This document shows, piece after piece, positions 48,069 to 64,000 of a stretch of 64,000 nucleotides of DNA (position 1 is the stretch's first letter; the number at the start of each line of letters is the position of its first letter). The DNA is taken from the NCBI RefSeq assembly GCF_027257975.1, contig NZ_JANZKX010000005.1:62001-126000 (forward strand), read 5' to 3'. Under the pieces are notes generated by a model. It was not told the origin of the DNA. It made no database searches and saw nothing but the letters and a program-made list of their open reading frames with translations. Origin of the DNA: Pelomonas sp. BJYL3 (GTDB lineage: Bacteria; Pseudomonadota; Gammaproteobacteria; Burkholderiales; Burkholderiaceae_C). The position numbers and the translations under genes are program-made.

Positions 48069-49247
48069 ATGAAGAAACTGTTGAAGTGTCCCCCGCTGTC
48101 GCATTCACTTTCGCTGGGGCTGAGTCTCCTGGTCGCCACCGTGCTGTCCTCGGCCTCATGCCAAGCTTCCGCCCTCGAGCCGGCCAGGTCTGAGACGTCG
48201 GAGCTCGTCGCCAAGGGCAGGGCTGGCCGCGTGTACGCCTTCACCCGGCTGCACGTCGCGAGAAGCCAGGGTCATACCGTGACCCCGCTGGGCGATGGCC
48301 GCCTGCTGGTGCTGGGTGGCCGCAGCGACAACCGTGCGACCCGCGCCGCAGAGCTCATCGATCCGCTGACGGGCCAGGTGGAACTCCTGAGCAGCATGGT
48401 GCAGGCTCGCCAGGGTCATGCGGCCACGCTGCTGCCGGACGGCCGTGTGCTGGTCACGGGTGGAGACCTCGGCGACGGCCGGGTGCTGGCCATGAGCTCG
48501 GCCGAGATCTTCGACCCCGTCAGCAAGACCTTTCAGGCCCTGCCCAGGCCCATGACGCTCGAGCGCTCCCGCCATACCGCAACGCTGCTCAACAGCGGCA
48601 AGGTGCTGATTGCCGGCGGCCAGGGGCTCAGTCCTGCCATGGTCACGTTCTCCGCGGAGCTCTTCGATCCTGTCAGCGGCAGCTTCGAGAGCCTGGCACC
48701 ACAGCGCCTCGTGGCGCCGCGTACCTACCATGCGGCGGCCTTGCTGGCGTCCGGCCAGGTGCTGATCGTCGGCGGGACCGACTGGCAGACGCTGCGGGCG
48801 CCAACGTCAGCAGAGCTGTATGACCCGGTCCGCAACACCTTCACGCAGCTGGCGTGCCCCTTGTCCTTCAGGAACGAGATGCCGCAGCTGATCACGCTCG
48901 GCTCCGGTCGCGTGATGGTGCTGAACTCGCGGGGCGCCGATCTGTTCGATCCCCTCAGCCAGACCTTCCAGGCCATCGCGGGGCCGCGCAAGGCACGTGC
49001 CTACGAGGCGGCCAGCGCCCTGGGTGATGGCGGCGCGGTGGTGCTCGGAGGGCTCAGCGCCGATGCCGTCACCCCGACCGTGGAACGCTACGACCCCCTG
49101 CGCGGCGTCTTCTGGTCCGCCGGCCGGCTGCACAAAGAGCGTGCCTGGGGTGTGGCCATCCTGGCCAACCATGGGGGCGTGCTCGTCATCGGGGGCGTCG
49201 ACCAGGGTGATGCAGCGATCGCGGATGTGGAGGTCTACTGGCCCTGA
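48069..49247 (+). CDS. Exported kelch-repeat beta-propeller protein
   Basis: A 392-residue protein with a signal sequence (about 1-36, with a possible lipobox-like LSSASC near residues 26-31) and about six kelch-type blades of 45-50 residues. Each blade has a GHTATLL-like strand, GxVLVxGG and AEIFDPVSxxF: HTVTPLGDGRLLVLGGRSDN, HAATLLPDGRVLVTGGDLGDG, HTATLLNSGKVLIAGGQG, YHAAALLASGQVLIVGGTD. It is a secreted or surface binding protein; no catalytic residues of galactose oxidase are evident. Confidence 0.82.
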   Translation: MKKLLKCPPLSHSLSLGLSLLVATVLSSASCQASALEPARSETSELVAKGRAGRVYAFTRLHVARSQGHTVTPLGDGRLLVLGGRSDNRATRAAELIDPLTGQVELLSSMVQARQGHAATLLPDGRVLVTGGDLGDGRVLAMSSAEIFDPVSKTFQALPRPMTLERSRHTATLLNSGKVLIAGGQGLSPAMVTFSAELFDPVSGSFESLAPQRLVAPRTYHAAALLASGQVLIVGGTDWQTLRAPTSAELYDPVRNTFTQLACPLSFRNEMPQLITLGSGRVMVLNSRGADLFDPLSQTFQAIAGPRKARAYEAASALGDGGAVVLGGLSADAVTPTVERYDPLRGVFWSAGRLHKERAWGVAILANHGGVLVIGGVDQGDAAIADVEVYWP

Positions 49248-49421
49248 TCCCGCATTGAGACCGCACAGAGCAGCACAGGAGATCGGGCTGCTCACACATC
49301 GCACCCCGGTGGCGCGCCCTGTAAGACCTGCTAGGGCCTCAGTGGCCTCTGTGCCCCTAGCATGCTGACCGCGGAAGTCCTCGGCCTGGATCGCAGGCAT
49401 CGGTGCACAGAGGAGGCGTCA

Positions 49422-50267
49422 ATGAACGGAAAGTCGGAACGCGGGTCCGCAACGGCGGCCATGACCTTTGACTGCATGTGTCGTGTCTCGATCGACCAGC
49501 GGGCGCTGGGCATCACGCTCTACTACCTGTCCCGGGATGGGGGCTCGTTCGGCCCCGAGATCATTGCGCTCGCCGGCACGGTCAAGAGTCCCGCCTCGGT
49601 CTACCCCAAGGGCATGCTGAGCTGCATGGTGCCGCCCCAGGCCCTGTCGGGCATGGCCGTCACGATGACGCTGCAAGGGTATGGCCCGCCCAGCGAGTCA
49701 GTCAGTACGCTGTCCTTGCGTGCGGTCGAGACAGGCCAGCTGATCGCAATCGGCGACCTCTACGGTACCGGCCTGGGCAGCGGACTGGCCGTCGGCGCCG
49801 GAACCTTCGGCCAGGCGAAGCCGTTCATGCTGGCCATGGCCCCTGAGAAGTACGTGATGACCATTGGCGGCAGCGTGAACGAGGCTGGCAGCCCCATCCT
49901 CCTGGGCGAACGCAACTGGAGCGACGCCCAGGCCTGGCGATTCAGGCCCGCCAAGGCGCCCGGCTTCTACTGGCTGGAGAACTACGTGAGCGGGCTGGTG
50001 GCAGGCCCGTCGAAGGCGACTGCAGGCGCGGGCACTCCGCTGGAGCTGCAGGCCCGGACGGGCGACGACGCGCAGCTGTGGTCCCTTGCCTATGCGGCCG
50101 TGGACCCCCATCGAGTCGTGCTGTCATCGAAGGCCGATGCGTCGCAGGTGGTGACCTTGTCGGGAGGCAGCATGGAAGACGGCGCCCCCATCGTCCAGGC
50201 GGCCGCCGACGGGCAGGTCACGCAGGCGTGGCTGATCCTGGGGTCAAGGGCTTGGGGGGAGTCCTGA
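49422..50267 (+). CDS. Ricin-type beta-trefoil lectin-like protein
   Basis: A 281-residue protein without an obvious signal peptide. The C-terminal half (about 140-275) has RICIN-fold repeats: AQAWRFRPAKAPGFYWLENYVSGLVAGPSKATAGAGTPLELQ, ending in DDAQLWSLAYA, and a third lobe VVLSSKADASQVVTLSGGSMEDGAPIVQ ... QAWLIL. The N-terminal part (residues 25-105) reads as a separate beta domain with paired CMC cysteines near residue 18. Carbohydrate or membrane binding is likely. AGAGGAGG precedes ATG 49422. It faces the lipid operon tail to tail. Confidence 0.68.
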   Translation: MNGKSERGSATAAMTFDCMCRVSIDQRALGITLYYLSRDGGSFGPEIIALAGTVKSPASVYPKGMLSCMVPPQALSGMAVTMTLQGYGPPSESVSTLSLRAVETGQLIAIGDLYGTGLGSGLAVGAGTFGQAKPFMLAMAPEKYVMTIGGSVNEAGSPILLGERNWSDAQAWRFRPAKAPGFYWLENYVSGLVAGPSKATAGAGTPLELQARTGDDAQLWSLAYAAVDPHRVVLSSKADASQVVTLSGGSMEDGAPIVQAAADGQVTQAWLILGSRAWGES

Positions 50268-50323: not shown

Positions 50324-51202
50324 TCAGTCGATGAGCTGGCGAGAGCGCAGCGCGCCGATGAACTGGCCCAGGAAGAGGGTGCGGACAAAGTAGAGCAGCA
50401 CGCTGCGCTCGATCAGCGCAGGCCGTATGTCAGGCAAGAGCGCGGCATGTGCCGAAGGCAGCTCAGTCCAGTGCAGCCGCTCGTTGTCGTGATGGGCCGT
50501 GTGGTAACCCACGTTGAACCAGAACCAGTTGATCCAGCCGACGAAGTTGCGTGAGTGGTTGTGCCTCGACCCTGCCACCGCATGCGCATGCTGGAGGTAG
50601 TTCGATGCCAGCAGGAAGTGCAAGCCCAGCAGCTGGGGCAGCGCAACGTAGATCAAGGCCTTGAACGGGTCCAGAACCACCAGGGTGGCCCAGAGCGACA
50701 GCAGCGCCAGGTGCTGCAGCATGATCCACCAGAACTCCGCGCGGTCCTGATGCCAGCACTTCCGCAGGTGGTCCCGCCTGAGGCGCTGGAGGGCGGGCAG
50801 CACCTGGAACGGGAAGCGCAGGTAACCCAGCAGGGTGTTGCCCGTGTCATGGCGCGCCACCCGCGTCAGGTCACCCGGGCTCTGGTTGTGCCGATGGTGG
50901 CTGTCGACGTGGGCGGGCTGGAACAGGAACACGGGCTGGCCTTGCAGCAGACCGATCCAGAGATCGGTGATCCGGTTCAGGATCGGGTATCGCCAGATCG
51001 GCAGGTGCGCATGGTTGTGATTGATGCAGCACAGACCGATGACCAGCATGAGGGTCAGCCCGTAGGCGGCCGCATTGACCGCCGCTTGCTGCCACTGCCA
51101 GCTCACGAGAGTCGGCAGTGCGATGAGGTAGGAGACGCTCTGCCAGTCGCGGCGATGGTGCACAAGAGTCATCGTGAGTTCAGTCGTGCGAGTGGGGGGC
51201 AT
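50324..51202 (-). CDS. Membrane fatty acid desaturase family protein
   Basis: A 292-residue di-iron membrane enzyme. The histidine boxes are HNHAH (62-66), HVDSHHRH (98-105) and HTAHH (234-238), with an added HAHAVAGSRHNH (205-216). Hydrophobic helices lie between them. This fits fatty-acid desaturase/hydroxylase-type oxygenases. Its ATG shares one base with the stop of the upstream acyltransferase-like gene. It is the last gene of the six-gene operon and probably oxidises the lipid product; substrate unknown. Confidence 0.85.
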   Translation of the reverse strand: MPPTRTTELTMTLVHHRRDWQSVSYLIALPTLVSWQWQQAAVNAAAYGLTLMLVIGLCCINHNHAHLPIWRYPILNRITDLWIGLLQGQPVFLFQPAHVDSHHRHNQSPGDLTRVARHDTGNTLLGYLRFPFQVLPALQRLRRDHLRKCWHQDRAEFWWIMLQHLALLSLWATLVVLDPFKALIYVALPQLLGLHFLLASNYLQHAHAVAGSRHNHSRNFVGWINWFWFNVGYHTAHHDNERLHWTELPSAHAALLPDIRPALIERSVLLYFVRTLFLGQFIGALRSRQLID

Positions 51203-52407
51203 CAGGGGACCGTCCTGACCGCTTGCCCGGACGCCGGCCTGGCGAGGACGTCGCAAAGGCGCCTGAGAAACGCTTCCAGCCGGCCGCCATCGCCGCTGGC
51301 CGCCGGGCACGACAGGGAGATCTCGAGGCCGTGATCATGCTGGATCGATTCCACGCTCAAGGCGGTTCCGGGCGTGTTGAAGGGGAGCAATGACACGGCG
51401 TCCGGGGTGCACTGGGGCGTGGCGAAGTCGCTCAATGCGACGCTTCCAAGGTGCGAGAGCGTGGCGGAGGTGAGGTAGGCGCCGCGCCTGACCTGCCGGG
51501 CATGGTATCGATCAAAAGTCCGGCCCAGCAGGGCCCGGGGCAGCATCGGGATGAATCCATCCAGCGCTGAATAGCGAAGCTCGTCATGCCGCCGCAGGGC
51601 GGTGATGATGTCGCGGTAGCACGTGTTCCAGTCCGACGCTGTCTGCAGCGACAGGAACAAGGGATTGCTGAGATTGGCCGTGGAGCGCAAGGTCGCATCC
51701 TTCCTGCGAAGGTCTACCGGCATCATGAGGCGGCAGGGCTGGCCAGCACACATGGAAGCCATGAATGCGGCCATCCGGGCACTGGCGGTGACCACCTGAC
51801 CTGGGACCGTGGCATGGGCATGCACGAAGTGCCTGCCGGCGTGGGCAGGTGGCCCCAGGGGCGAAGTCTGGTCGGCCTTCAGGAACGGGCGACGTCCGGC
51901 ATGGGCCCGAGCCTTCAGATAGTCATGATCGGAGACCATACAGGCAGTGCCCGCCGGGGACGTTCCCCGCAGGATCCGGAAGACGTCTTTGGCGAAGAGG
52001 AGCAGCCCTGCTGCATCCATCAGCGCATGCGAGCAGCGGAAGATCAGGCCGCAGCCGGGCCAGTACAGCACTTCCAGGAGGGGCGTGTCCTGGATGCCGA
52101 GCTGCTGGTGCAGGGCGGGATGCGCCAGGGTAAAGGGGAGGGCGTCGCCGGGCAGGCGCAGTTGGGGGGCGAGGCCGCTGTCATGCCAGCGCCTGCCGCG
52201 AACGCGGAGCCGCGCACCGGGGTTCGCGCTCGCCGCCTGCTGGATCGCCGCTTCCAGCAGGGCCCGCTCGGGCAAGCGGGCGAGTGCGACGCGCAGCTGG
52301 ATCGCGAAGGGAGCGAAATGCGGGGAGGCCGCCAGGTACAGCCATTCATAGGGCGTCACCCTTCGTACAGGCGTCCAGGGGGGGAGCACCTCAGGCCCGG
52401 TGTTCAC
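51202..52407 (-). CDS. Condensation-domain/HxxxD acyltransferase-like protein
   Basis: A 401-residue soluble protein. HALMD at 127-131 (SHALMDAAGLLLFAKDVF) gives the HxxxD active site of the superfamily that includes NRPS condensation domains, wax-ester synthases and alcohol acyltransferases. Further family-like parts are LMMPVDLRRKDATLRSTANLSNP (the DFGWG-side region is not clear) and VRRGAYLTSATLSHLGSVALSDF. It would join an acyl group to an amine or hydroxyl. The start is GTG 52407: GGAGGA lies six bases before it, and it overlaps the adenylating-enzyme gene by 17 bases. Confidence 0.7.
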   Translation of the reverse strand: MNTGPEVLPPWTPVRRVTPYEWLYLAASPHFAPFAIQLRVALARLPERALLEAAIQQAASANPGARLRVRGRRWHDSGLAPQLRLPGDALPFTLAHPALHQQLGIQDTPLLEVLYWPGCGLIFRCSHALMDAAGLLLFAKDVFRILRGTSPAGTACMVSDHDYLKARAHAGRRPFLKADQTSPLGPPAHAGRHFVHAHATVPGQVVTASARMAAFMASMCAGQPCRLMMPVDLRRKDATLRSTANLSNPLFLSLQTASDWNTCYRDIITALRRHDELRYSALDGFIPMLPRALLGRTFDRYHARQVRRGAYLTSATLSHLGSVALSDFATPQCTPDAVSLLPFNTPGTALSVESIQHDHGLEISLSCPAASGDGGRLEAFLRRLCDVLARPASGQAVRTVP

Positions 52408-53683
52408 GGACGATCCTCCGGCATTTGGCAAGGGCCTCCCCAGCGGGCACGGTGCCGTGGCAGGTCCAACTGAGCTGCTCGGTGGCGATGCCGAGCCGAG
52501 CCAGCCCATCGAGCAGTCCCTGCTGTAGCAGCGTCATGCCGTGAGGGTCCAGGCTGGCATGCAGGTCCAGGTTGGCGGGGCCGCGCTGTATCAGGCGATA
52601 GTCAGCCTCCCGGGGCAGGCACTGCGCAATCACCCGTGACAGGGAATCGGCAAAGACCTGCACCTGCGGGTGGCGCCGGCCGGGGAGCAGCAGCATGTCG
52701 TCATGCCGGCCCTCGATAGCATCCAGGGCGAGGCAGGCGCTGCCGCAGGGGCAGGGCGCCTGGCGCGCCAGCAGCACGTCATCAAGCCGGTAGCGCACGA
52801 AGGGCTGCGTCAGCCGCGTGAAGTCGGTGATCACCGGGATGAAACGCCGCCGTTCGTGGTCCAGCCAGCGCGGCTCTACATGGACATAGCCTTCGTTGAG
52901 ATGAAGGACCCCGTGTGCACAGGTGCTGGCGAGAAAGCCTTCGGTGGCCTGATAGACCTGATGGACCGGCCCGAAGACGCTGGCGATCAGCTCGCGGTCG
53001 CGAGGCTCCAGCACCTCGGCCACCGAGATCACGCGGCGGGGCCGCAGGCGCAGGCCGCCCTCCAGTGCACGAAGTGCCAGGGCGCGAAGCACCTGGGCTG
53101 GGGCGACGATGATGGTGGCATCGAAGGCCTCGAGCGCATCGAGGTTGTCATCGAAGGGTTGCAGGAGATCGAAGAATCGGAAGGCGATCCAGTGCGAGCG
53201 GACGCTCTCGTACACATTGCTGTTCGCCCGCAGGAACAGGGCGACACGCTCCCGGGCGAGAAGGCCGGCAGGCAACATTCTGGCCAGCATGACGCCGGCC
53301 CAGATCGCCGCCTCCCGGTCGCTGATGGCGAACACGCCGCGCTGCCCCGACGTGCCCGACGACAGGCCGACATTGATGGACTTCAGTCGTGGCCTGAAGT
53401 CCCGGCTGCGCTCGGCGTCCAGGGCCGCATCAAACACCTGGCGCAGCTGGAGTCCTGCCGTGTTGATGTCGTCGAAGTGGGCCAGCATGCGCTGCTTGTC
53501 CATGTCAGGCCATTCGCACAGGGGCCGGTCGCCCAGGCCAGCGTAGAAGGGACTGGCAGTGGCCAGCATTCGCTGGAATCGAGCCAGGTGGGTGCGCTGA
53601 TGGGCCTCCAGTGCCTCGCGCGAGGCGAAGCGCATCCGGCGCTCGCGCAGGTAGGCCGTCAGCAGTCGAAGGCCGCGCATCAT
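52391..53683 (-). CDS. F390-synthetase/PaaK-like adenylate-forming protein
   Basis: A 430-residue protein of the ANL-related PaaK/CapK group. The phosphate-binding loop is LSSGTSGQRG (107-116). Further features are QATEGFLASTCAHGVLHLNEGYVHVEP (the acidic A5-like region), TDFTRLTQPFVRYRLDDVLL, and CPCGSACLALDAIEGRHDDML, where three Cys may bind zinc as in some PaaK-like enzymes. It would activate a carboxylate as an adenylate. Its start overlaps the MBL gene stop by four bases. The substrate is unknown; probably the acid made by the upstream enzymes. Confidence 0.78.
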   Translation of the reverse strand: MMRGLRLLTAYLRERRMRFASREALEAHQRTHLARFQRMLATASPFYAGLGDRPLCEWPDMDKQRMLAHFDDINTAGLQLRQVFDAALDAERSRDFRPRLKSINVGLSSGTSGQRGVFAISDREAAIWAGVMLARMLPAGLLARERVALFLRANSNVYESVRSHWIAFRFFDLLQPFDDNLDALEAFDATIIVAPAQVLRALALRALEGGLRLRPRRVISVAEVLEPRDRELIASVFGPVHQVYQATEGFLASTCAHGVLHLNEGYVHVEPRWLDHERRRFIPVITDFTRLTQPFVRYRLDDVLLARQAPCPCGSACLALDAIEGRHDDMLLLPGRRHPQVQVFADSLSRVIAQCLPREADYRLIQRGPANLDLHASLDPHGMTLLQQGLLDGLARLGIATEQLSWTCHGTVPAGEALAKCRRIVREHRA

Positions 53684-54486
53684 GGCGCTTGCTCCGGTGC
53701 CTCGTGGGTCAGCATGACTGGAATGCCGCGTGCATGCAGTGCATGAAGACTGTGCAGGGTGCGGTAATAGGCGGACCGCCTGTGCTGGATGAGGAAGGAC
53801 AGTTCGGACGGACCCCGCAGGGCCTCGTAGCTTTCCTTTGCCCAGGCCGCATCGGAGGCGATCAGCAGCCAGCCCTGTTCCAGGCGGACAAAGGCCCCGA
53901 GGTGACCGATGGCATGGCCGGGCAGCGGGACGATCAGGACTTCACCACTGCCATCCAGGTCCGCCCCAAGGGCGAAGGGTGACAGTTCGGCCGGCAGTGC
54001 GCGCTGCGGCAAGGACTCGACGAACTGCAGACGCGACTGTGTGTCCGCCGGCACGAGCCCTGGCAGGAAGGCACGTCGAAGGGCCCGCAAGCCGCTGAGT
54101 CCCTGGACACTGTCCCAGGCCTCGCCCGAGCAGACGATCCTCGGCGTCGGGAAGTCCTTGAGCCCCGCCATGTGATCGGCATGGAAGTGGGAGATCACGA
54201 TGGACTGCAGGTCCCTGCCGTGCAGGCCTTCTCTGCGCAGTTGCTCGACCAGCGCAGCCTGCGCATCCAGATGCACGGGGGTCACCAGCGGATACAGACG
54301 ATAGATTCCGCGCGCTGCATCTTTGAAGTGCGTGGCATAGCCCGTATCCCAGAGGTGCAGCCCGCGCGAGGTCTCGATCAACCAGGCCCTCGAAGGAAAG
54401 CAGCGGCTCTCCAGTCCCGCACCTTTCAGGGCCATGCAGGCGGGGTGCATGCAATGGCCAACCTCGAACGCACGCAGTCTAGCCAT
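53680..54486 (-). CDS. Metallo-beta-lactamase-fold hydrolase
   Basis: A 268-residue protein with the metal motif HFHADH (His100, His102, Asp104, His105), a further PLPGHAIGH His and SDAAWAKES, the expected ligands of a binuclear zinc or iron MBL-fold hydrolase (lactonase/thioesterase type). The N-terminus RLRAFEVGHCMHPACMALKGAG is unusual for the fold. Its start overlaps the SDR gene by 8 bases. In this operon it may release or hydrolyse a thioester or lactone intermediate; this is inference. Confidence 0.83.
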   Translation of the reverse strand: MARLRAFEVGHCMHPACMALKGAGLESRCFPSRAWLIETSRGLHLWDTGYATHFKDAARGIYRLYPLVTPVHLDAQAALVEQLRREGLHGRDLQSIVISHFHADHMAGLKDFPTPRIVCSGEAWDSVQGLSGLRALRRAFLPGLVPADTQSRLQFVESLPQRALPAELSPFALGADLDGSGEVLIVPLPGHAIGHLGAFVRLEQGWLLIASDAAWAKESYEALRGPSELSFLIQHRRSAYYRTLHSLHALHARGIPVMLTHEAPEQAP

Positions 54487-55480
54487 GGGACTTCAGCCAG
54501 TCGGCCGTCCGTGCAATGCCTAGCTCCAGGCTCACCGCGGGCTCGTAGCCCAACAGGGCCCGGGCGCGCGCCAGATCCAGTGTCATGTCATAGGACAGCA
54601 CCCCGACGCTGTACCGGGTCAGGCGCGGCTCACGTCGGGTGAACAGGGCCTGGCACTCCATGACCGTCGCCGCGGCAGCCAGGGCGAGGGGGGGAATGTC
54701 CAGGATCTGCATGCGCCAGCCCAGCTCCCGCGTGAACAGGCGGTGGAGTACCTCCGCGATGGGGGCTGGCTCGCCGTTGGTGATGTTGAAGGCGAGGCCG
54801 GAGGACAGTTCTGCACGCAGGGTGGCCAGCCACATCGCCTGGACCACATTGCCCACATAGGTCATGTCGATGACGGCACGACCGCCCCGTGGCAGCGGCA
54901 GGCGACCGCCATGCCGCCGCAGCATTTCCTGCAGGCGCGGGACGAGTACCTGGTCATGAGGTCCGAAGATGGCCCGGGGTCGCAGGATGGCCACGCGCAT
55001 GGAGGGAAAGCGCAGGCCAGCCTCTTGCACGGCATCCTCGGCCAGCGCCTTGGTGCGGGCGTAGTGATTGACCGGCCGACGGGCCCGGAATGACTCGTTG
55101 ACACCATGGCGGTGCGAGTAGTCGAAATAGATGGCTGGCGTGGAGACATGGATGAAGCGCGACACCCCACATTCGCCAGCGGCCTGGACAAGGCGGGACG
55201 TGGCCCGCACATTGCAGTCCTGGAACCGTTCACGGGCCCCCCAGGGCGAGGAGAGCGCCGCGCAATGCCACACGGCATGCACGCCGTCCAGCAGGGCGCG
55301 CAGGGCGGGCCCATCCGCCGTCACGAGGTCCAGGCCCATGAATTGGGCGCCGCGCTGGCGCAGCGCGCTGCCGACCTGCGCATTGCGTCCTGTCGCCCTC
55401 ACGTCGACGCCTTGCTCCAACAGAAAATCGACAGCATTGCGCCCCAGGCCCCCGGTGGCTCCGGTCACAAGTACGCGCAT
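54479..55480 (-). CDS. Extended SDR (NAD-dependent epimerase/dehydratase; OleD/3beta-HSD-like)
   Basis: A 333-residue Rossmann protein. The nucleotide motif GATGGLGR is at 7-14, the catalytic Tyr140-xxx-Lys144 lies in NHYARTKALAEDA, and the Ser/Thr of HVSTPAIYFDYS completes the site. The size and the RPRAIFGPHDQVLVPRLQEM stretch resemble 3-beta-HSD/OleD-type 2-alkyl-3-keto-acid reductases. It would reduce the keto group made by the KAS III enzyme next to it, only one base away. A specific substrate cannot be assigned. Confidence 0.82.
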   Translation of the reverse strand: MRVLVTGATGGLGRNAVDFLLEQGVDVRATGRNAQVGSALRQRGAQFMGLDLVTADGPALRALLDGVHAVWHCAALSSPWGARERFQDCNVRATSRLVQAAGECGVSRFIHVSTPAIYFDYSHRHGVNESFRARRPVNHYARTKALAEDAVQEAGLRFPSMRVAILRPRAIFGPHDQVLVPRLQEMLRRHGGRLPLPRGGRAVIDMTYVGNVVQAMWLATLRAELSSGLAFNITNGEPAPIAEVLHRLFTRELGWRMQILDIPPLALAAAATVMECQALFTRREPRLTRYSVGVLSYDMTLDLARARALLGYEPAVSLELGIARTADWLKSHG

Positions 55481-55481
55481 G

Positions 55482-56573
55482 TCAGAGGTCCAGGACCAGC
55501 CCGCCCAGACTCACGCCCGCGGCGGTGCCTATCAGCAGGGCGCGGCGCCCCGGGCCCAGCAGGCCGGACGACAGCGCTTCATGCAAGGCCGTGGGGATTG
55601 ACGCTGCCACCTGATTCCCGTGCGTGGGGTAGATGTCCACGATGCGGCACCTGTCCAGCCCCATCTTGCGGATCATGTGAGCCATGCCAAGGTGGCTGGC
55701 TTGGTGGGGCACGACAACGTCGATGCTGTCGAGGGTGATTCCCGCGGCGGCCAGGAGCTCACTCATGAAGCCCGGCATCTTCTGCAAGGCCAGCTTGAGG
55801 ACCTGCTTGCCATTCATGCTGAAAAGGAAATCGGCACCTTGGGCCCCGTCTGCCAGCGTCTTGCCCGTGCCGCCGCCGCGTATCTCGCACAGGCGCCGCC
55901 CCTCGGTGTAGGTCTGGTAGCCAAAGGAGCGGATCCCTTGCCGGCCCTGGCCTCGCTCCACGAGGGCTGCGGCCGCCCCATCGCCGAAGATGAGGGACGA
56001 CTCCGGATGGCTCCAGTCCAGCCCATGGGAAGCCTGGTCCGCGGAGACCACGGCAATGCGGCGGTAGCTGCCCGAGGCCAGCAGCGACGCGGCCATCTTC
56101 AGGGCGACGACAAAGCCCAGGCAGCTGGCGTTCACGTCAAAGGCCGGTGTGCCGGCAGGTAGCCCGGCATGCGCCGCGATGGCGCAGGCGGTGGATGGCA
56201 GGGCCTGCTCCTGGACGCCACAGGCGGCGATCAGGAGGTCAATGGATGCCGGGTCGACGCCCGCGTTCCTCACCGCGTCCCCGAGAGCCCGCGCGGCCAG
56301 CTGACTCTGCGATTCAGCGGCCGACGAAAATCGCCGGCAGCGAATGCCCGACATCTTGAAGCTGTAGCCCGCCGGCTGCCGGAGCTGCTCGTCCAGCATG
56401 GCCGCGGTCATCAAGGTGTCTGCTTCTGCCTTGCCGGTGGCCAGCAGCCGAAGGCTCAGGAATGGCGGGTGGTCGCCAGCGCTGAGCGCAGGGTCAGTCC
56501 TTGCCTCCTCCGCACGGGCCTGTGCGCCCGCGAGGGCACGCTTCCTGAACGGAATCGTTCCTTGTTCGTTCAT
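55482..56573 (-). CDS. KAS III-like ketoacyl synthase (FabH/OleA relative)
   Basis: A 363-residue thiolase-fold condensing enzyme. The catalytic triad is Cys151 (FDVNASCLGFVVAL), His290 (VVPHQAS) and Asn320 (THGNQVAASIP), as in FabH. GDGAAAALVERG and the C-terminal IGTAAGVSLGGLVLDL fit the fold. There is an N-terminal extension of about 38 residues before the fold begins (FLSLRLLATGKAEADTL). It would condense an acyl-CoA/ACP with malonyl-ACP or another acyl-CoA. It is the first gene of the operon, so it probably makes the committed step. AT-rich DNA (56595-56620) precedes it. Confidence 0.85.
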   Translation of the reverse strand: MNEQGTIPFRKRALAGAQARAEEARTDPALSAGDHPPFLSLRLLATGKAEADTLMTAAMLDEQLRQPAGYSFKMSGIRCRRFSSAAESQSQLAARALGDAVRNAGVDPASIDLLIAACGVQEQALPSTACAIAAHAGLPAGTPAFDVNASCLGFVVALKMAASLLASGSYRRIAVVSADQASHGLDWSHPESSLIFGDGAAAALVERGQGRQGIRSFGYQTYTEGRRLCEIRGGGTGKTLADGAQGADFLFSMNGKQVLKLALQKMPGFMSELLAAAGITLDSIDVVVPHQASHLGMAHMIRKMGLDRCRIVDIYPTHGNQVAASIPTALHEALSSGLLGPGRRALLIGTAAGVSLGGLVLDL

Positions 56574-56965: not shown

Positions 56966-57007
56966 AATGCTTCAAGTCACACTAAGCATCAAGGGCTTAG
57001 ATGCCGG

Positions 57008-57083
<76 letters not shown>

Positions 57084-57194
57084 ACGGTCGCGAAAAGTAT
57101 AGCCAGGCACTGTGACGTGTGCGAGTGCCCGTTGGAACTGAGCGAAACTGCGGGCCTTGCCACGGAGTCCGGGCTTGTGCACCCGGGAGCAGCC

Positions 57195-58064
57195 ATGTCC
57201 GAACACAGCGCCGATTGGTTTGAATCGCAGTACAACAACCGTCGCCGTGTCCCCGAGGCCGAGGTCCTGTTGCAGCGCTGGGCCGAGGCGTCGGCGCTGG
57301 TGCGGGAGCAGGCACGCTGCCAGCTGGATCTGCGCTACGGTGCCGGGCCACGGCAGCGCCTGGATGTGTTCAGTGACAGCGTCGCCAAGGCGCCCGTGCT
57401 GGTCTTCATCCACGGCGGCTACTGGCGGGCGCTGTCCAAGGAGGACCTCTCCTTCGTCGCGCCGGGCTTCACCAGCGAAGGCGCGGTCGTGGTCATCCCA
57501 GGCTATGACCTGTGCCCCGAGGTCAGCATGGAGCGCATCCCGCTGCAGCTGGCCGAGGCGCTGGCCTGGGTCTGGCGCCACGTGGCGGACTATGGCGGCG
57601 ACCCCAATCACATCGTGCTGGCCGGCCATTCGGCGGGCGGGCATCTGGCCGCCTTGCTGAGCTGCTTCGACTGGAAGAGCCTGGCACCGGACCTGCCGCG
57701 CCAGCTGGTCAAGGGCGTGCTGTCCCTCTCAGGCCTGCATGAGCTCGAGCCCCTGGTGCATACGCCTTTCCTGCAGGCCGACCTGCGCCTGGACGAGGCC
57801 AGCGCCCGCCGCCTGAGCCCGGTGCATCAGGCGCCGCCGGATTCCCCGCTCTATGCCGTCGTCGGCGGAGCGGAAAGCGAGGAGTTCAAGCGCCAGTGCC
57901 GCCTCATCCAGGAGGCCTGGGGCCCACAGGCCGTGCCCGTGGTCGAAGAAGTGCCAGGCTACAACCACTTCGACCTGCTCTACGACCTGGTGGCGCCCGA
58001 AGGCATCAGCCATGCCCTGGCGCGCCGTCTGCTGGACCTGCGCTGGTACAGCCCGCTGCTCTGA
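57195..58064 (+). CDS. Alpha/beta hydrolase, kynurenine-formamidase-like
   Basis: A 289-residue cytosolic hydrolase. The oxyanion motif is HGGYW (in VLVFIHGGYWRALSKED), the nucleophile elbow is GHSAGGHLAALL, and a His near the end (EVPGYNHFDLLYDL) completes the triad. HGGYW plus this overall length match kynurenine formamidase-like esterases, but no tryptophan-catabolism genes adjoin, so the substrate is open. ATG 57195 is used; the longer frame upstream reads through the tRNA gene and is spurious. Confidence 0.83.
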   Translation: MSEHSADWFESQYNNRRRVPEAEVLLQRWAEASALVREQARCQLDLRYGAGPRQRLDVFSDSVAKAPVLVFIHGGYWRALSKEDLSFVAPGFTSEGAVVVIPGYDLCPEVSMERIPLQLAEALAWVWRHVADYGGDPNHIVLAGHSAGGHLAALLSCFDWKSLAPDLPRQLVKGVLSLSGLHELEPLVHTPFLQADLRLDEASARRLSPVHQAPPDSPLYAVVGGAESEEFKRQCRLIQEAWGPQAVPVVEEVPGYNHFDLLYDLVAPEGISHALARRLLDLRWYSPLL

Positions 58065-59874: not shown

Positions 59875-62800
59875 TCAGATAAGCGGCACGATGCGGTTCA
59901 GGTCATCGTCCTCGCCAGGCGCCTTGCGCAGCGGCACCAGCTGGTGGTGCAGCACGCCGTGGTGGCCCGGTTGGGTGACCCCGTCGCCCAGCAGGTTGCC
60001 CGCCGGTCCGGCCAGGACGTCGCCCAGGCTCAGCTTGGGTTCGCCGGACTTGCCGTGCTCCGGCGTCGCCGCATGGGCGTCGCCCGAGCTGGCGGCGCTG
60101 CTGGCGGACTCGCCCGTGTCCTTGGCGAACCAGACGTCCGCCATGTCATGGGTCTTGCCGTCGCTGGTCGTGTAGCCGGAGACCAGGCCCACCAGGTTGC
60201 CGTTGTTCACCGCCGTGCCGGTCTGCGCATGCAGGTCCAGCGAGGTGATGCCCAGATCCGCCAGGGCCTTCAGCTCGCCCGCGTCGGTCTTGCCGTCGTG
60301 GTTGGCATCCACCCAGAGCTTGAGCTGGCCGAACTGGGCGTCGGTGGCGTTCAGCGCGCCGTCATGGTTGCTGTCCAGCGTGGCCATGGCCTGGTAGCCG
60401 TTGGCGGCGCGGCTGCCGTCCGCCAGCTGGGTGCCGCTGCCGAACAGTTCCTTGCCGTCGTTGATCTGGCCATCGCCGTTGCGGTCCATGACCAGCAGGC
60501 CGTCGTTGCCGCCCACCCAGCCCCACTTCTGGGCGTTGCCGGTGCCGTTCAGGTCGAAGCTGACGCCCTGGGCCGCCGCGGTCGTCGAGACGCCGTTGCC
60601 GTCCAGGTCCAGCACGATGGGCGAGGTCAGCCACAGGGCATCCAGTTGGGCGCCGGTCATCGCGTGGATCACTTCCGTGGTCAGCGCGCCGAACTGGGTC
60701 ATGTTCAGCTTGGCGATGTCCTCGGACTCCATGCCCAGGATCTGCTCCGTCGTGAGGCTGTGGATCTGCTCCGTGGTCAGCCCGGCGATCTGCGAGGTGG
60801 TCAGGGCCTTGATGTCATCGCTGGCGAGGTGCGAGAACTGGTCCGTCGTGAGCGCGTGGATCTGGGCCGAGCTGAAGGCCGCGATCTGCGTGGTGCTCAG
60901 CGCATTGATGTCATCGCTGCTGAAGGTGCTGATCTGGTCCGTGGTCAGCGCCAGCACCTGGGCCGTGCTCAAGGCGGCGATGTGCTCGGTGCCCAGGGCC
61001 GAGAACTGCTCGGTCGACAGCGCATGCAGGGCGGAGGTCGACAGCAGCTTGATGTCATCGCTGCTGAAGGCCGCCATGTCGGCGCTGTCGATGCCCTTCA
61101 CCTGAGCCGAGGTCAGCAGACCGATCTGCGTGCTGGTGAAGGCATCGATCTGGTCGGAGCTGAAGGCCTGGAGGTCATCAGACTGCAGGGCGCGGAAGGC
61201 CGCCGTGCTCAGGGCGCGGATGTCCTCGGACGAGAAGGTCACGATCTGGTCCGAAGTCATGGCCGTGACCTGGGCCGCGCTGAGCGAGGCCACCTGGTCG
61301 GAGCCCAGGGCCTGGATGTCGGCGGTCTCCCACTTCTGGACCTGCGTCGTCGTCAGCGCGGCCACCTGCACCACGCTCAGCGTCGGCACCTGGTCGCTGG
61401 TCAGGGCGTTCAGCTGGTCGCTGCTCAGGGCGCGGACGGCGAAGGCGTTCAGCGCGCGGAGGTCGTCCGTCTGCATGGCCGCGATCATGCCCACGCTGAT
61501 GCCGGGCACCTGGACCGAGGTCAGGGCCGCCATCTGGGCGGTGCCCATGGCATTGAAGTCGTCCGAGCCCATCGCGTTGATCTGGGCCGAGCTCAGCGCC
61601 GCCACCTGGGTCACCGTCAGCGCGGCGACCTGGTCGGAGGTCAGCGCCACGAACTGGTCGGTGCTGAAGCTGCGCAGGGCTGCAGTGCTCAGGGCACGCA
61701 GGTCATCCGTGGCCAGGGCCGCGATCTGGTCGGAGTGCAGACCGGCGACCTGGTTGGAGGTCAGCCCGCTGTACTGCGCCGTGGTCAGCGCCACCAGCTG
61801 GTCCGTGCCCATGGCGCCCAGCTGGACGCTGCTGATGCCGCGGATGCCGGCACTGCTGATGGCCTGCAGATCCTCGGTCGCCAGCTTCATGAACTGGTCG
61901 GTGCCGATGGCTGCGACCTGCGTCGAGCTCATGGCTGCGTACTGGTCGGTCGTGAAGGCCACCAGGTCCTCGCTGCCCAGGCCGCGGATCTGTGCGCTGG
62001 TCAGCGCATTGACCTGGGCCGTGGTCATGGCGGCGAACTGGTCGGAACCGAGCGTGCCCAGCACATCCGTGCTGATGGCGCGCAGGGCGGCCGTGCTGAT
62101 GGCACGCAGATCGTCCGACTGCATCTTGGCCAGCTGATCACTGCTGAAGCCCACGATCTGGCTGCTGGTGAGGGCCGCGGCCTGGGCCGTGGTCAGTGCC
62201 ACGACTTCATCCGTGGTCAGCGCGGCGATCTGGGCCGAGCTCAGGCTGCGCAGGGCGGCCGTGTTGAGCGCCGCGAAGTCCTCGGTCTGCAGGGCACGCA
62301 GCTGGTCGGTGCCCAGGGCAGAGACCTGCGCCGAGGTGAGCACGGCGAACTGGTCGGTGCCCAGCGCGTTCAGGTCGTCGCTGACCATGCCCTTGATCTG
62401 CGCGCTGGTGAGCGCGGCCACCTGGGCGGTGGTCAGGGCGCCGATCTGGTCAGAGCCGAGGGCACCGATCTGCTCGGTGCCGAGGGCCCGGATGGCCGCG
62501 GTGCTGATCGCACGGAGGTCGTCGGTTTCCAGCGCAGCGATCTGGTCGGTGCTCAGGCCCTTGACCTGCGCACTGGTGAGCGCCGCGGCCTGGGCCGTGG
62601 TCAGTGCCTTGATCTCGTCGGTCGAGAAGCCGCCGAACTGGTTGCCCGGGCTGGTGGCCAGCGAGGCGATCTGGGCCGAGGTGAGGGCCACGATCTGGTC
62701 GGAGGTCAGCGCGGCGATCTGGTCGCTGCTCAGCGCCTTGATCGTGGCGGTGCTGAGGGCGCGCAGGTCGTCGGTCTCGATCTTGGCGATCTGGTCGCTG

Positions 62801-64000
62801 GTGAGGCCGGTGACCTGGCTGCTGGTGAGGGCCGCGGCCTGGGCGGTGCTCAGGGCCACGATCTCATCGGTGGTCAGGGCACCGATCTGGACGGAGCTCA
62901 TGCCACGCAGGGCCGCCGTGTTGATGGCGGCGAGGTCCTCGGTCTGCAGGGTCTTGATCTGGTCGCTCGTCAGGGCGGCCACCTGGCTGGAGCTCAAGGC
63001 CTTGAACTGGTCGGTGCCCAGCGCGTTGAGGTCGTCGCTGGCGAGGCTCTTGAGCTGGCTGCTGGTCAGCGCCTGGACCTGGCTCGTGGTCAGCGCGCCC
63101 AGCTGGTCCGAGGTCAGCTGTGCCAGCTGGTCGGTGCCCAGCGCCTTGATCACCGAGGTGCTCAGGGCACGCAGGTCCTGGGTCTCGAGCTTGATCAGCT
63201 GGTCGCTGGTCAGGCCGCCGATCTGTGCCGAGGTCAGGGACGCCGCCTGGTCGGTGGACAGCCCGATGATCTGGTCGCTGGTCAGCGCGCTCAGCTGCGC
63301 CGAGGTCAGGCCCTTCAGGGCGGCCGTGCTGATGTTGCCGAAGTCGTCGGTGGTCATGGTGCGGATCTGGTCCGTACCGATGGCCGCGATCTGGGCCGAG
63401 CTCAGCACCTTGATCTGGTCGGACACCAGGGCATTGAGGTCGTCGCTGCCCAGGCCCTTGATCTGGGCGGTGGTCAGGGCCGAGACCTGGGCGGTCGTCA
63501 GTGCGCCGATCTGGTCGGAGCCCAGGGCCGCGATCTGCTCGGTGCTGAGGGCCTTGATGGCGGCGGTGCTGATGGCGCGCAGGTCATCGGTCTCGAAGGC
63601 GGCCACCTGGTCGGTGCTCAGACCCTTGACCTGGCTGCTCGTCAGCGCAGCGGCCTGGGCGGTGGTCAGGGCGCGGATGTCGTCCGTGGCGAAGCCGCCG
63701 AACTGGTTGCCCGGTGCGGTCGCCAGGGCCGCGATCTGGGCCGAGGTCAGGGCCACGATCTGGTCAGACGTCAGGGCGGCGATCTGCTCGCTGCCCAGGG
63801 CCTTCAGCGTCCCGGTGTTGAGGGCGCGCAGGTCGTCGGTCTCGAGCTTGGCGATCTGGTCGCTGGTCAGGCCGGCGACCTGGCTGCTGGTCAGCGCGGC
63901 GGCCTGGGCCGTGGTCAGGGCCACGACCTCGTCCGTGGTCAGCGCGCCGAGCTGGACCGAGCTCATGCCACGCAGGGCCGCGGTGTTGATGGAGGCGAAG
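59875..64000 (-). CDS. Giant 8-residue-repeat protein with EF-hand-like C-terminus, 5' end outside window
   Basis: The frame is open to the right edge, giving at least 1,375 residues. Most of it is an 8-residue repeat with consensus ALTSDQIA (variants GLTSDQIA, ALTTAQVA, KLETDDLR, ALSTAAIK). The last 240 residues contain VLDLDGNGVS, DRNGDGQINDGKELFG, LDSNHDGALNATDAQFG and VDANHDGKTDAGEL: DxNxDG calcium sites common in large RTX-type secreted proteins. It is probably exported, perhaps by a type I system, as a surface adhesin or fibre, but no transporter is in view. The ATG at 63966 is internal to the repeat array and not a real start. Confidence 0.85.
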   Translation of the reverse strand, partial: FASINTAALRGMSSVQLGALTTDEVVALTTAQAAALTSSQVAGLTSDQIAKLETDDLRALNTGTLKALGSEQIAALTSDQIVALTSAQIAALATAPGNQFGGFATDDIRALTTAQAAALTSSQVKGLSTDQVAAFETDDLRAISTAAIKALSTEQIAALGSDQIGALTTAQVSALTTAQIKGLGSDDLNALVSDQIKVLSSAQIAAIGTDQIRTMTTDDFGNISTAALKGLTSAQLSALTSDQIIGLSTDQAASLTSAQIGGLTSDQLIKLETQDLRALSTSVIKALGTDQLAQLTSDQLGALTTSQVQALTSSQLKSLASDDLNALGTDQFKALSSSQVAALTSDQIKTLQTEDLAAINTAALRGMSSVQIGALTTDEIVALSTAQAAALTSSQVTGLTSDQIAKIETDDLRALSTATIKALSSDQIAALTSDQIVALTSAQIASLATSPGNQFGGFSTDEIKALTTAQAAALTSAQVKGLSTDQIAALETDDLRAISTAAIRALGTEQIGALGSDQIGALTTAQVAALTSAQIKGMVSDDLNALGTDQFAVLTSAQVSALGTDQLRALQTEDFAALNTAALRSLSSAQIAALTTDEVVALTTAQAAALTSSQIVGFSSDQLAKMQSDDLRAISTAALRAISTDVLGTLGSDQFAAMTTAQVNALTSAQIRGLGSEDLVAFTTDQYAAMSSTQVAAIGTDQFMKLATEDLQAISSAGIRGISSVQLGAMGTDQLVALTTAQYSGLTSNQVAGLHSDQIAALATDDLRALSTAALRSFSTDQFVALTSDQVAALTVTQVAALSSAQINAMGSDDFNAMGTAQMAALTSVQVPGISVGMIAAMQTDDLRALNAFAVRALSSDQLNALTSDQVPTLSVVQVAALTTTQVQKWETADIQALGSDQVASLSAAQVTAMTSDQIVTFSSEDIRALSTAAFRALQSDDLQAFSSDQIDAFTSTQIGLLTSAQVKGIDSADMAAFSSDDIKLLSTSALHALSTEQFSALGTEHIAALSTAQVLALTTDQISTFSSDDINALSTTQIAAFSSAQIHALTTDQFSHLASDDIKALTTSQIAGLTTEQIHSLTTEQILGMESEDIAKLNMTQFGALTTEVIHAMTGAQLDALWLTSPIVLDLDGNGVSTTAAAQGVSFDLNGTGNAQKWGWVGGNDGLLVMDRNGDGQINDGKELFGSGTQLADGSRAANGYQAMATLDSNHDGALNATDAQFGQLKLWVDANHDGKTDAGELKALADLGITSLDLHAQTGTAVNNGNLVGLVSGYTTSDGKTHDMADVWFAKDTGESASSAASSGDAHAATPEHGKSGEPKLSLGDVLAGPAGNLLGDGVTQPGHHGVLHHQLVPLRKAPGEDDDLNRIVPLI
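60640..64000 (-). repeat. 24-base coding repeats in 1,065-base higher-order units
   Basis: About 140 octapeptide units occur in the visible part. Equivalent residues recur at exactly 1,065 bases (355 residues): MSSVQLG begins at 63966, MSSVQIG at 62901 and ISSVQLG at 61836. An insert ALATxPGNQFGGFxTD recurs with the same period in the first two units and is lost in the third. The array ends near 60640, before the calcium-binding part. Confidence 0.85.

Follow-up and report, generated by a model that had tools for sequence, protein, structure and literature searches.

The closest described systems to the operon reported here are the OleABCD olefin and oleACD beta-lactone pathways, the lipstatin-type lst cluster, and the condensing enzymes MxnB and CorB of the myxopyronin and corallopyronin pathways. 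The operon comprises six genes on the minus strand of a 64,000-nucleotide stretch of the Pelomonas sp. BJYL3 genome (contig NZ_JANZKX010000005.1, positions 62,001 to 126,000; hereafter the window). With the Ole pathways it shares the logic of condensing, reducing and adenylating, along with an OleD-like reductase, but its ketoacyl synthase (KAS) is not OleA-like and lacks the OleA glutamate, its adenylating enzyme is a PaaK-like member of TIGR02304 and not OleC, and a metallo-beta-lactamase (MBL) fold hydrolase is present and not OleB. The lst cluster has a comparable (LstD-like) reductase, and a nonribosomal peptide synthetase (NRPS) from a related locus in Noviherbaspirillum (L031) is collinear with a lipstatin-like NRPS (32% over 997 columns); however, by Pfam and NCBIfam the window operon lacks the LstA/LstB pair, the fatty acid CoA ligase, the formyltransferase and the adenylation (A) and thiolation (T) domains. 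MxnB and CorB resemble the window KAS in subgroup, as its best PDB match, in their Cys-His-Asn triad and in the hydrophobic residue that replaces the glutamate of OleA and PpyS, and share an R-x-GG[TS]-type stretch with it in alignments. Whereas MxnB and CorB serve polyketide synthase (PKS)/NRPS assembly lines, the window KAS accompanies a reductase, an MBL hydrolase and an adenylating enzyme. We find that these four genes form a conserved module, to which two further genes are added in the window strain. The operon reads from position 56573 to 50324 as follows:

55482..56573, minus strand: KAS, a KAS III-type condensing enzyme of the MxnB/CorB-like subgroup; first gene, 363 amino acids (aa)
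54479..55480, minus strand: RED, an NAD(P)-dependent extended short-chain dehydrogenase/reductase, OleD/3beta-HSD-like; 333 aa
53680..54486, minus strand: MBL, an MBL-fold hydrolase of a lactonase-like branch; 268 aa
52391..53683, minus strand: ADE, a PaaK-like adenylate-forming enzyme of TIGR02304 ('F390 synthetase-related'); 430 aa
51202..52407, minus strand: HXD, a stand-alone HxxxD protein akin to the N-terminal domain of single-module NRPSs; 401 aa
50324..51202, minus strand: DES, a membrane fatty acid desaturase; 292 aa

All six open reading frames (ORFs) and their junctions were reproduced as the initial annotation, made from the DNA letters and ORF translations, had given them: a gap of 1 base between KAS and RED, followed by overlaps of 8 (RED/MBL), 4 (MBL/ADE), 17 (ADE/HXD) and 1 (HXD/DES) bases. 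HXD begins at GTG 52407, with GGAG upstream, and is joined to DES (ATG 51202) by a clean TGATG stop-start coupling; both starts are a choice, made in the initial annotation and again here, and longer ORFs with starts at 52509 and 51310 are possible. GC content at third codon positions (GC3) is 0.76-0.86 across the six genes, and that of HXD (0.81) is like its neighbours. The genes are probably carried on one transcript because they are so tightly coupled; a scan for sigma-70-type promoters gave 0 sites, with 0.6 expected. The catalytic residues that could be placed were said to be intact, and the corresponding motifs are indeed found in KAS, MBL, ADE, HXD and DES.

The recurrence of the first four genes was examined in 44 ADE loci (L031-L057, L064-L072 and L074-L081; L070 and L081 record the same E. 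coli locus twice, which leaves 43 distinct loci). They comprise 25 ADE-query loci with named hosts, widened by further genome searches, annotated plasmids and E. coli. KAS, RED, MBL and ADE are all present as open frames on one strand in 41 of the 44, ordered KAS-RED-MBL-ADE in 34 and with KAS after ADE in seven. The three others are L041, where KAS lies beyond the contig start, L055, a cut contig with only a piece of ADE, and L042, where RED is cut at the contig end and ADE is on the strand opposite to KAS and MBL. By tblastn, the four genes occur within the stretch in 23 of the 25 ADE-query loci, L042 being counted via its RED fragment; absence of a partner from a locus may reflect the 10-kb flank limit, and the Paenibacillus and Metabacillus rows are non-independent. 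Spacing varies: KAS and RED are about 1.1-1.3 kb apart in L033-L035, L038-L040, L043, L074 and L077 (a size that fits an inserted ATP-grasp gene), KAS is separate from ADE in L044, L047, L050 and L054, and several unrelated genes stand between the four core genes, still in order, of Pseudomonas sp. Leaf58 (L072 1330-11263). The TIGR02304 gene of megaplasmid pMPPla107 (L073 9968-11266, outside the 44-locus count) has no annotated KAS, RED or MBL within 10 kb. Among 41 taxa, the distances of the four core proteins correlate pair by pair (rho 0.55-0.65), and for each of the six pairs 0 of 1000 permutations reached as high a value. Because they stand together in many distant genomes, the first four genes cluster beyond chance; their homologues are clustered elsewhere and not scattered. 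The initial annotation had treated the six genes as a unit, which holds for the first four; the HXD/DES tail is variable, and L031 alone among the 44 other loci has both genes. We therefore reject a single conserved unit of six genes and conclude that the operon is a conserved four-gene module plus two add-on genes.

Complete modules occur in seven phyla (Pseudomonadota, Bacillota, Campylobacterota, Elusimicrobiota, Fusobacteriota, Bacteroidota and Chloroflexota; L044, L047 and L050 for the last), although several hosts are metagenome-assembled genomes, in which misbinned contigs are possible. The ADE gene is rare and patchy in the window's order and phylum, with matches above the TIGR02304 cut-off in 3 of 300 and 7 of 398 genomes, respectively (window included in both). 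It is also carried by 20 plasmid records, 11 of which were opened. Some 2-3 kb upstream of the module at L064 2744-9092 (genome G511), beyond intervening genes, are an AHL (acyl-homoserine lactone)-synthase-like gene and a LuxR-like regulator, as read from the sequence. Of 5426 complete E. coli genomes, 672 (about one in eight) have a seven-gene version, which is covered to 80% or more in 671 of them. In the one strain inspected it is flanked by narI on one side and by a tRNA-Tyr gene, next to purU, on the other, and its genes run KAS, RED, MBL, ADE, PAP2 phosphatase, sterol-desaturase-family protein and fatty acid desaturase:

L081 7001-13882 and L070 6203-13084 (same locus): E. coli seven-gene module

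KAS matches the Pfam families ACP_syn_III and ACP_syn_III_C, in line with the KAS III-like enzyme named initially, and its placement can now be refined. In a tree of 38 rows (26 module KASs from the loci at hand, with the letters of MxnB and CorB taken from an alignment), the module KASs, MxnB and CorB make up one 28-row clade with support of 98/98. Outside it fall E. coli FabH, two other FabH chains, the window genome's own FabH, another KAS, one OleA-like row (L089, a label resting on an OleD gene above cut-off in the same stretch and on a Glu-Pro motif) and two LstA-like rows (labelled by cluster layout). The PDB sequences nearest to KAS are MxnB (4v2p, 178 bits) and CorB (4yuc, 160 bits), followed by FabH (about 120-140) and OleA (about 58); FabH models score 198-218 bits, and the nearest NCBIfam model, PRK07204, scores 302 bits, under its cut-off of 402. 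The catalytic triad C151-H290-N320 is present. One study gives E117 of OleA and the equivalent Glu of PpyS as the catalytic base, and V94 at this place in MxnB and CorB (PMC4578411). This position is Leu in the window KAS and Leu or Ile in all 26 module KASs, and Glu is kept in L089 and in the two LstA-like rows; an OleA-type KAS is accordingly rejected. To the LstA-like proteins the window KAS scores 36 and 60 bits. A housekeeping FabH is encoded elsewhere in the window genome (G000:C22; 52% to E. coli FabH).

RED matches Epimerase (114 bits) and 3Beta_HSD (92 bits) in Pfam. Its best NCBIfam model is OleD (NF042422), at 163.5 bits well under the cut-off of 580 (a Bacillus RED reaches 227 bits), and it scores 117 bits to the LstD-like protein of L085. 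MBL matches Lactamase_B and retains the metal ligands H100-x-H102-x-D104-H105, H191, D212 and H261, the HxHxDH-H-D-H pattern being invariant in 26 of 26 sequences. The MBL-fold family proposed initially thus stands; a structure model (mean pLDDT 94.1) refines it, as the first 26 Foldseek matches in the PDB are all lactonases at about 20% identity (best 50 of 927 matches). The modelled fold is that of a lactonase, on a branch among lactonases. AHL lactonases and 4-pyridoxolactonase have the same fold and zinc ligands, but identity to MBL is only about 20% and family cut-offs are far from reached. ADE is a clear member of TIGR02304 (aden_form_hyp, 484.9 bits, cut-off 251.9), carries the motifs SSGTSG, YQATEG, YRLDD and EGRHDD along with K420, and matches PaaK structures by profile. 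The phosphate-binding loop, YQxTEG, YxLxD, GRxDD and the C-terminal Lys420 are conserved in an alignment of 29 ADE homologues. The name 'F390 synthetase-related protein' carries no tested function for TIGR02304, nor a four-gene context. An F390 synthetase-like gene is mentioned in a different type II fatty acid synthesis (FASII) setting in work on ladderanes (PMC2649909), and a coenzyme F390 synthetase is named in phenol-degradation data (PMC5501837). These matches agree with the OleD/3beta-HSD-like reductase and F390/PaaK-like adenylating protein named at the outset. Lacking among the six genes, by Pfam and NCBIfam, are an OleC-type AMP-binding protein and an OleB alpha/beta hydrolase, and ADE has no OleC/LstC-type AMP-binding match in Pfam, consistent with the initial view that this is not a standard olefin or beta-lactone pathway.

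The two add-on genes differ in how readily they are recognised. DES is a fatty acid desaturase, as first described (FA_desaturase, PF00487, 81.5 bits), with three His boxes (HNHAH, HVDSHH and HTAHH) and 61% identity to the L031 desaturase. Searches of Pfam, NCBIfam and PDB sequences gave nothing credible for HXD. Its motif is H127-x3-D131, both residues being invariant in six of six aligned sequences. It had been described as an acyltransferase-like protein, but it does not make up a free-standing acyltransferase family: its relatives are N-terminal domains of NRPSs. The L031 homologue is a 1002-aa single-module NRPS in which the HXD-like part is followed by AMP-binding and PP-binding domains; HXD is 43% identical to its N-terminus and 37% to an NRPS of Rhodococcus (L083). 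HXD-like genes were found in 23 plasmid records (21 Streptomyces and 2 Rhodococcus). Among the 20 plasmid matches listed, 17 bear an NRPS or adenylation-protein annotation and three have none. Two of the four NRPS regions opened (L083 and L085, from Rhodococcus and Streptomyces) have a lipstatin-type layout, with KAS, KAS-like protein, fatty acid CoA ligase, epimerase, NRPS and formyltransferase, and two (L084 and L086) do not. Along most of its length the L031 NRPS aligns collinearly with each of the four groups at about 32-33%, and it is as near to those of L084 and L086 as to the lipstatin-like ones. In the Streptomyces plasmid clusters L084 and L086, the HXD-like NRPS N-terminal domains stand beside menaquinone (futalosine) genes. 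When HXD was compared by hhalign with two of the window genome's canonical condensation domains (HHxxxDG), the probability was 0.1, and a control against MBL gave 0.4, the profiles being thin; a structure model of HXD from a two-row alignment is poor (mean pLDDT 39.3). Assignment of HXD as a Pfam condensation domain is rejected, with no Pfam or PDB match and no hhalign signal. Judged by its relatives, HXD appears to be an NRPS N-terminal domain, condensation-like in motif and position. The set had been said to lack an acyl carrier protein (ACP), which is true of the window operon insofar as it has no dedicated carrier protein, but the Noviherbaspirillum relative carries a PP-binding (carrier) domain. 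A separate A-T partner protein encoded in the window genome was considered and rejected: the A-T part of the L031 NRPS matches 37 places there, the best in long NRPS frames on other contigs and none beside the operon. The genome is rich in NRPS genes: PP-binding domains occur at 36 places, and the longest frames reach 7206 aa (G000 contigs C1, C3, C6, C24 and C25).

Other loci have other genes beside the core. An ATP-grasp protein (cluster c4; the one member tested is ATP-grasp_3) and a GNAT/FemAB-like protein (cluster c5; one member just above Pfam cut-offs, another without a match) each occur in 12 of the 25 ADE-query loci. E. coli, L056, L065 and L066 carry FA_hydroxylase; these four and L064 have one or two FA_desaturases, and PAP2 is present in L064 and E. 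coli. Glycosyltransferases (L032 and L054), GH3 (L052), a sulfotransferase (L075 and L076) and DUF3419 (L079), a family linked to betaine-lipid synthesis, were also identified.

We tentatively propose, at somewhat less than even confidence, that the operon holds a conserved biosynthetic module in which two acyl chains are condensed, reduced, hydrolysed, adenylated and transferred. KAS would join two acyl chains supplied as thioesters, in the manner of MxnB and CorB; in vitro, MxnB links two beta-ketoacyl chains that are each bound to a carrier (PMC5724707). RED would turn the beta-keto group into a hydroxyl, MBL would hydrolyse the product off its carrier or open a lactone to give a free acid, and ADE would activate this acid as an acyl-adenylate. 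In the window strain HXD may pass the activated acid to an acceptor while DES desaturates a chain. In other hosts the last step would fall to other enzymes (ATP-grasp with the GNAT-like protein, glycosyltransferases, sulfotransferase, DUF3419, or PAP2 with hydroxylase and desaturases), and the variation of such head-group-type enzymes beside a constant core supports a swappable last step. Of the orders that employ all conserved enzymes, condensing, reducing, hydrolysing, adenylating and transferring is the simplest. Support comes from the recurrence of the core, the distance correlations, the KAS clade, the OleD-like RED, the lactonase-like MBL, the intact ADE and the presence of FabH elsewhere in the genome. 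Gene content and order, conservation, catalytic motifs, the KAS subgroup and the lactonase fold of MBL are observed; we hold the proposal only tentatively because the reactions, with their substrates, order and product, are inferred. Several observations count against it. The MxnB/CorB-like tree position does not fix the KAS reaction; MxnB and CorB adjoin a single long-branched row (L052; 97/84) in a tree of only 38 rows, and an earlier study places them inside the FabH clade (PMC4578411). MBL is far under every lactonase NCBIfam cut-off (best 55.5 against 325). Its Trp215 stands where AHL lactonases have Tyr. TIGR02304 gives no clue to the substrate, and PaaK relatives act on aryl acids. HXD is not tied to canonical condensation domains by profile comparison, and the distance correlations could also stem from shared host ancestry.

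Two alternatives for the core depart from this proposal solely in the partners that KAS joins and the target that MBL cuts. The first, which is possible though doubtful, is that KAS extends an unusual acyl starter with malonyl-ACP, the option being kept because MxnB and CorB are placed inside the FabH clade in the study cited above (PMC4578411). RED would then give a 3-hydroxyacyl product, MBL would be a thioesterase and ADE would activate the released 3-hydroxy acid for transfer. A precedent is PqsE, an MBL-fold protein that acts as a thioesterase. The FabH-like triad, the FabH model scores, the lack of a glutamate base in KAS and of a dedicated carrier protein in the operon are all consistent with this alternative. 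However, the KAS clade is set apart from true FabH with 98/98 support, and lactonases head the MBL Foldseek matches, with no PqsE among the best 50 of 927. FASII already yields 3-hydroxyacyl-ACP, so a dedicated KAS and reductase would seem superfluous.

Somewhat less probable is that HXD and DES are leftovers, HXD being the remnant of an NRPS that lost its A and T domains, with only the four-gene core functional. The AMP-binding and PP-binding domains of the L031 gene point that way, as do the single other locus with the HXD-DES pair and the presence of HXD in just 1 of 300 genomes of the order (the window's own). Yet HXD is full length and open, keeps H127 and D131, has a GC3 like that of its neighbours and retains the TGATG coupling to DES.

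We consider an Ole- or lipstatin-type route unlikely. Here KAS would condense two acyl-CoAs without decarboxylation, RED would give a 2-alkyl-3-hydroxy acid, ADE would close a beta-lactone in place of OleC and MBL would act on the lactone in place of OleB, while HXD with A-T domains would add an amino acid as in lipstatin. The OleD-like RED, with its score to the LstD-like protein of L085, and the lactonase-like MBL are in keeping with such a route, and the relatives of HXD include NRPSs in lipstatin-like clusters (two of the four regions opened). OleACD clusters without OleB make beta-lactones (PMC7064751), and LstAB belong to the lipstatin cluster (PMC12141560). On the other side stand the replacement of the OleA/PpyS Glu in every module KAS, the position of KAS outside the OleA-like and LstA-like rows with its low LstA-like scores, and the lack of an OleC/LstC-type match for ADE in Pfam; moreover, L084 and L086 are of another layout, and the L031 NRPS is as near to them as to the lipstatin-like ones. 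Finally, a chance neighbourhood of unrelated metabolic genes, to which the individually common enzyme families might point, deserves almost no credence and is refuted for the first four genes by the one-strand core of 41 loci, although the HXD/DES link has two hosts only.

Other genes were identified around the operon in the window. On the opposite strand, 56967-58064 encodes a separate alpha/beta hydrolase. Just downstream, at 48069-50267 (plus strand), are a Kelch-repeat protein and then a ricin-type lectin-domain protein, and 59875-63966 (minus strand) encodes a repetitive protein of 1363 aa with 37 ALTTAQ repeats (PF20080, 983 bits).

The lipid-type character first assigned to the operon is upheld by the enzyme families and motifs, which suggest such a role. 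The enzymes are of known kinds and their combination appears new; we found no description of the module, and no match to a characterised pathway, in the open-access literature, a search that papers in subscription journals would escape. The module may make an undescribed class of two-chain lipid, an alpha-branched or hydroxylated acyl scaffold with exchangeable head groups, by way of an MxnB-like KAS outside any polyketide assembly line, although we regard this as speculative. Four enzymes that keep together across distant phyla while their neighbours change point to a shared building block whose decoration can be exchanged. If true, a missing biosynthetic route would be named, and the large, unnamed TIGR02304 family would gain a functional lead. 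MxnB-type chemistry would move from specialised antibiotics to ordinary bacterial lipids, and a two-chain lipid would be common to at least seven phyla and to the E. coli genomes that carry the module. The presence of the module in some E. coli makes these predictions testable in well-equipped hosts.

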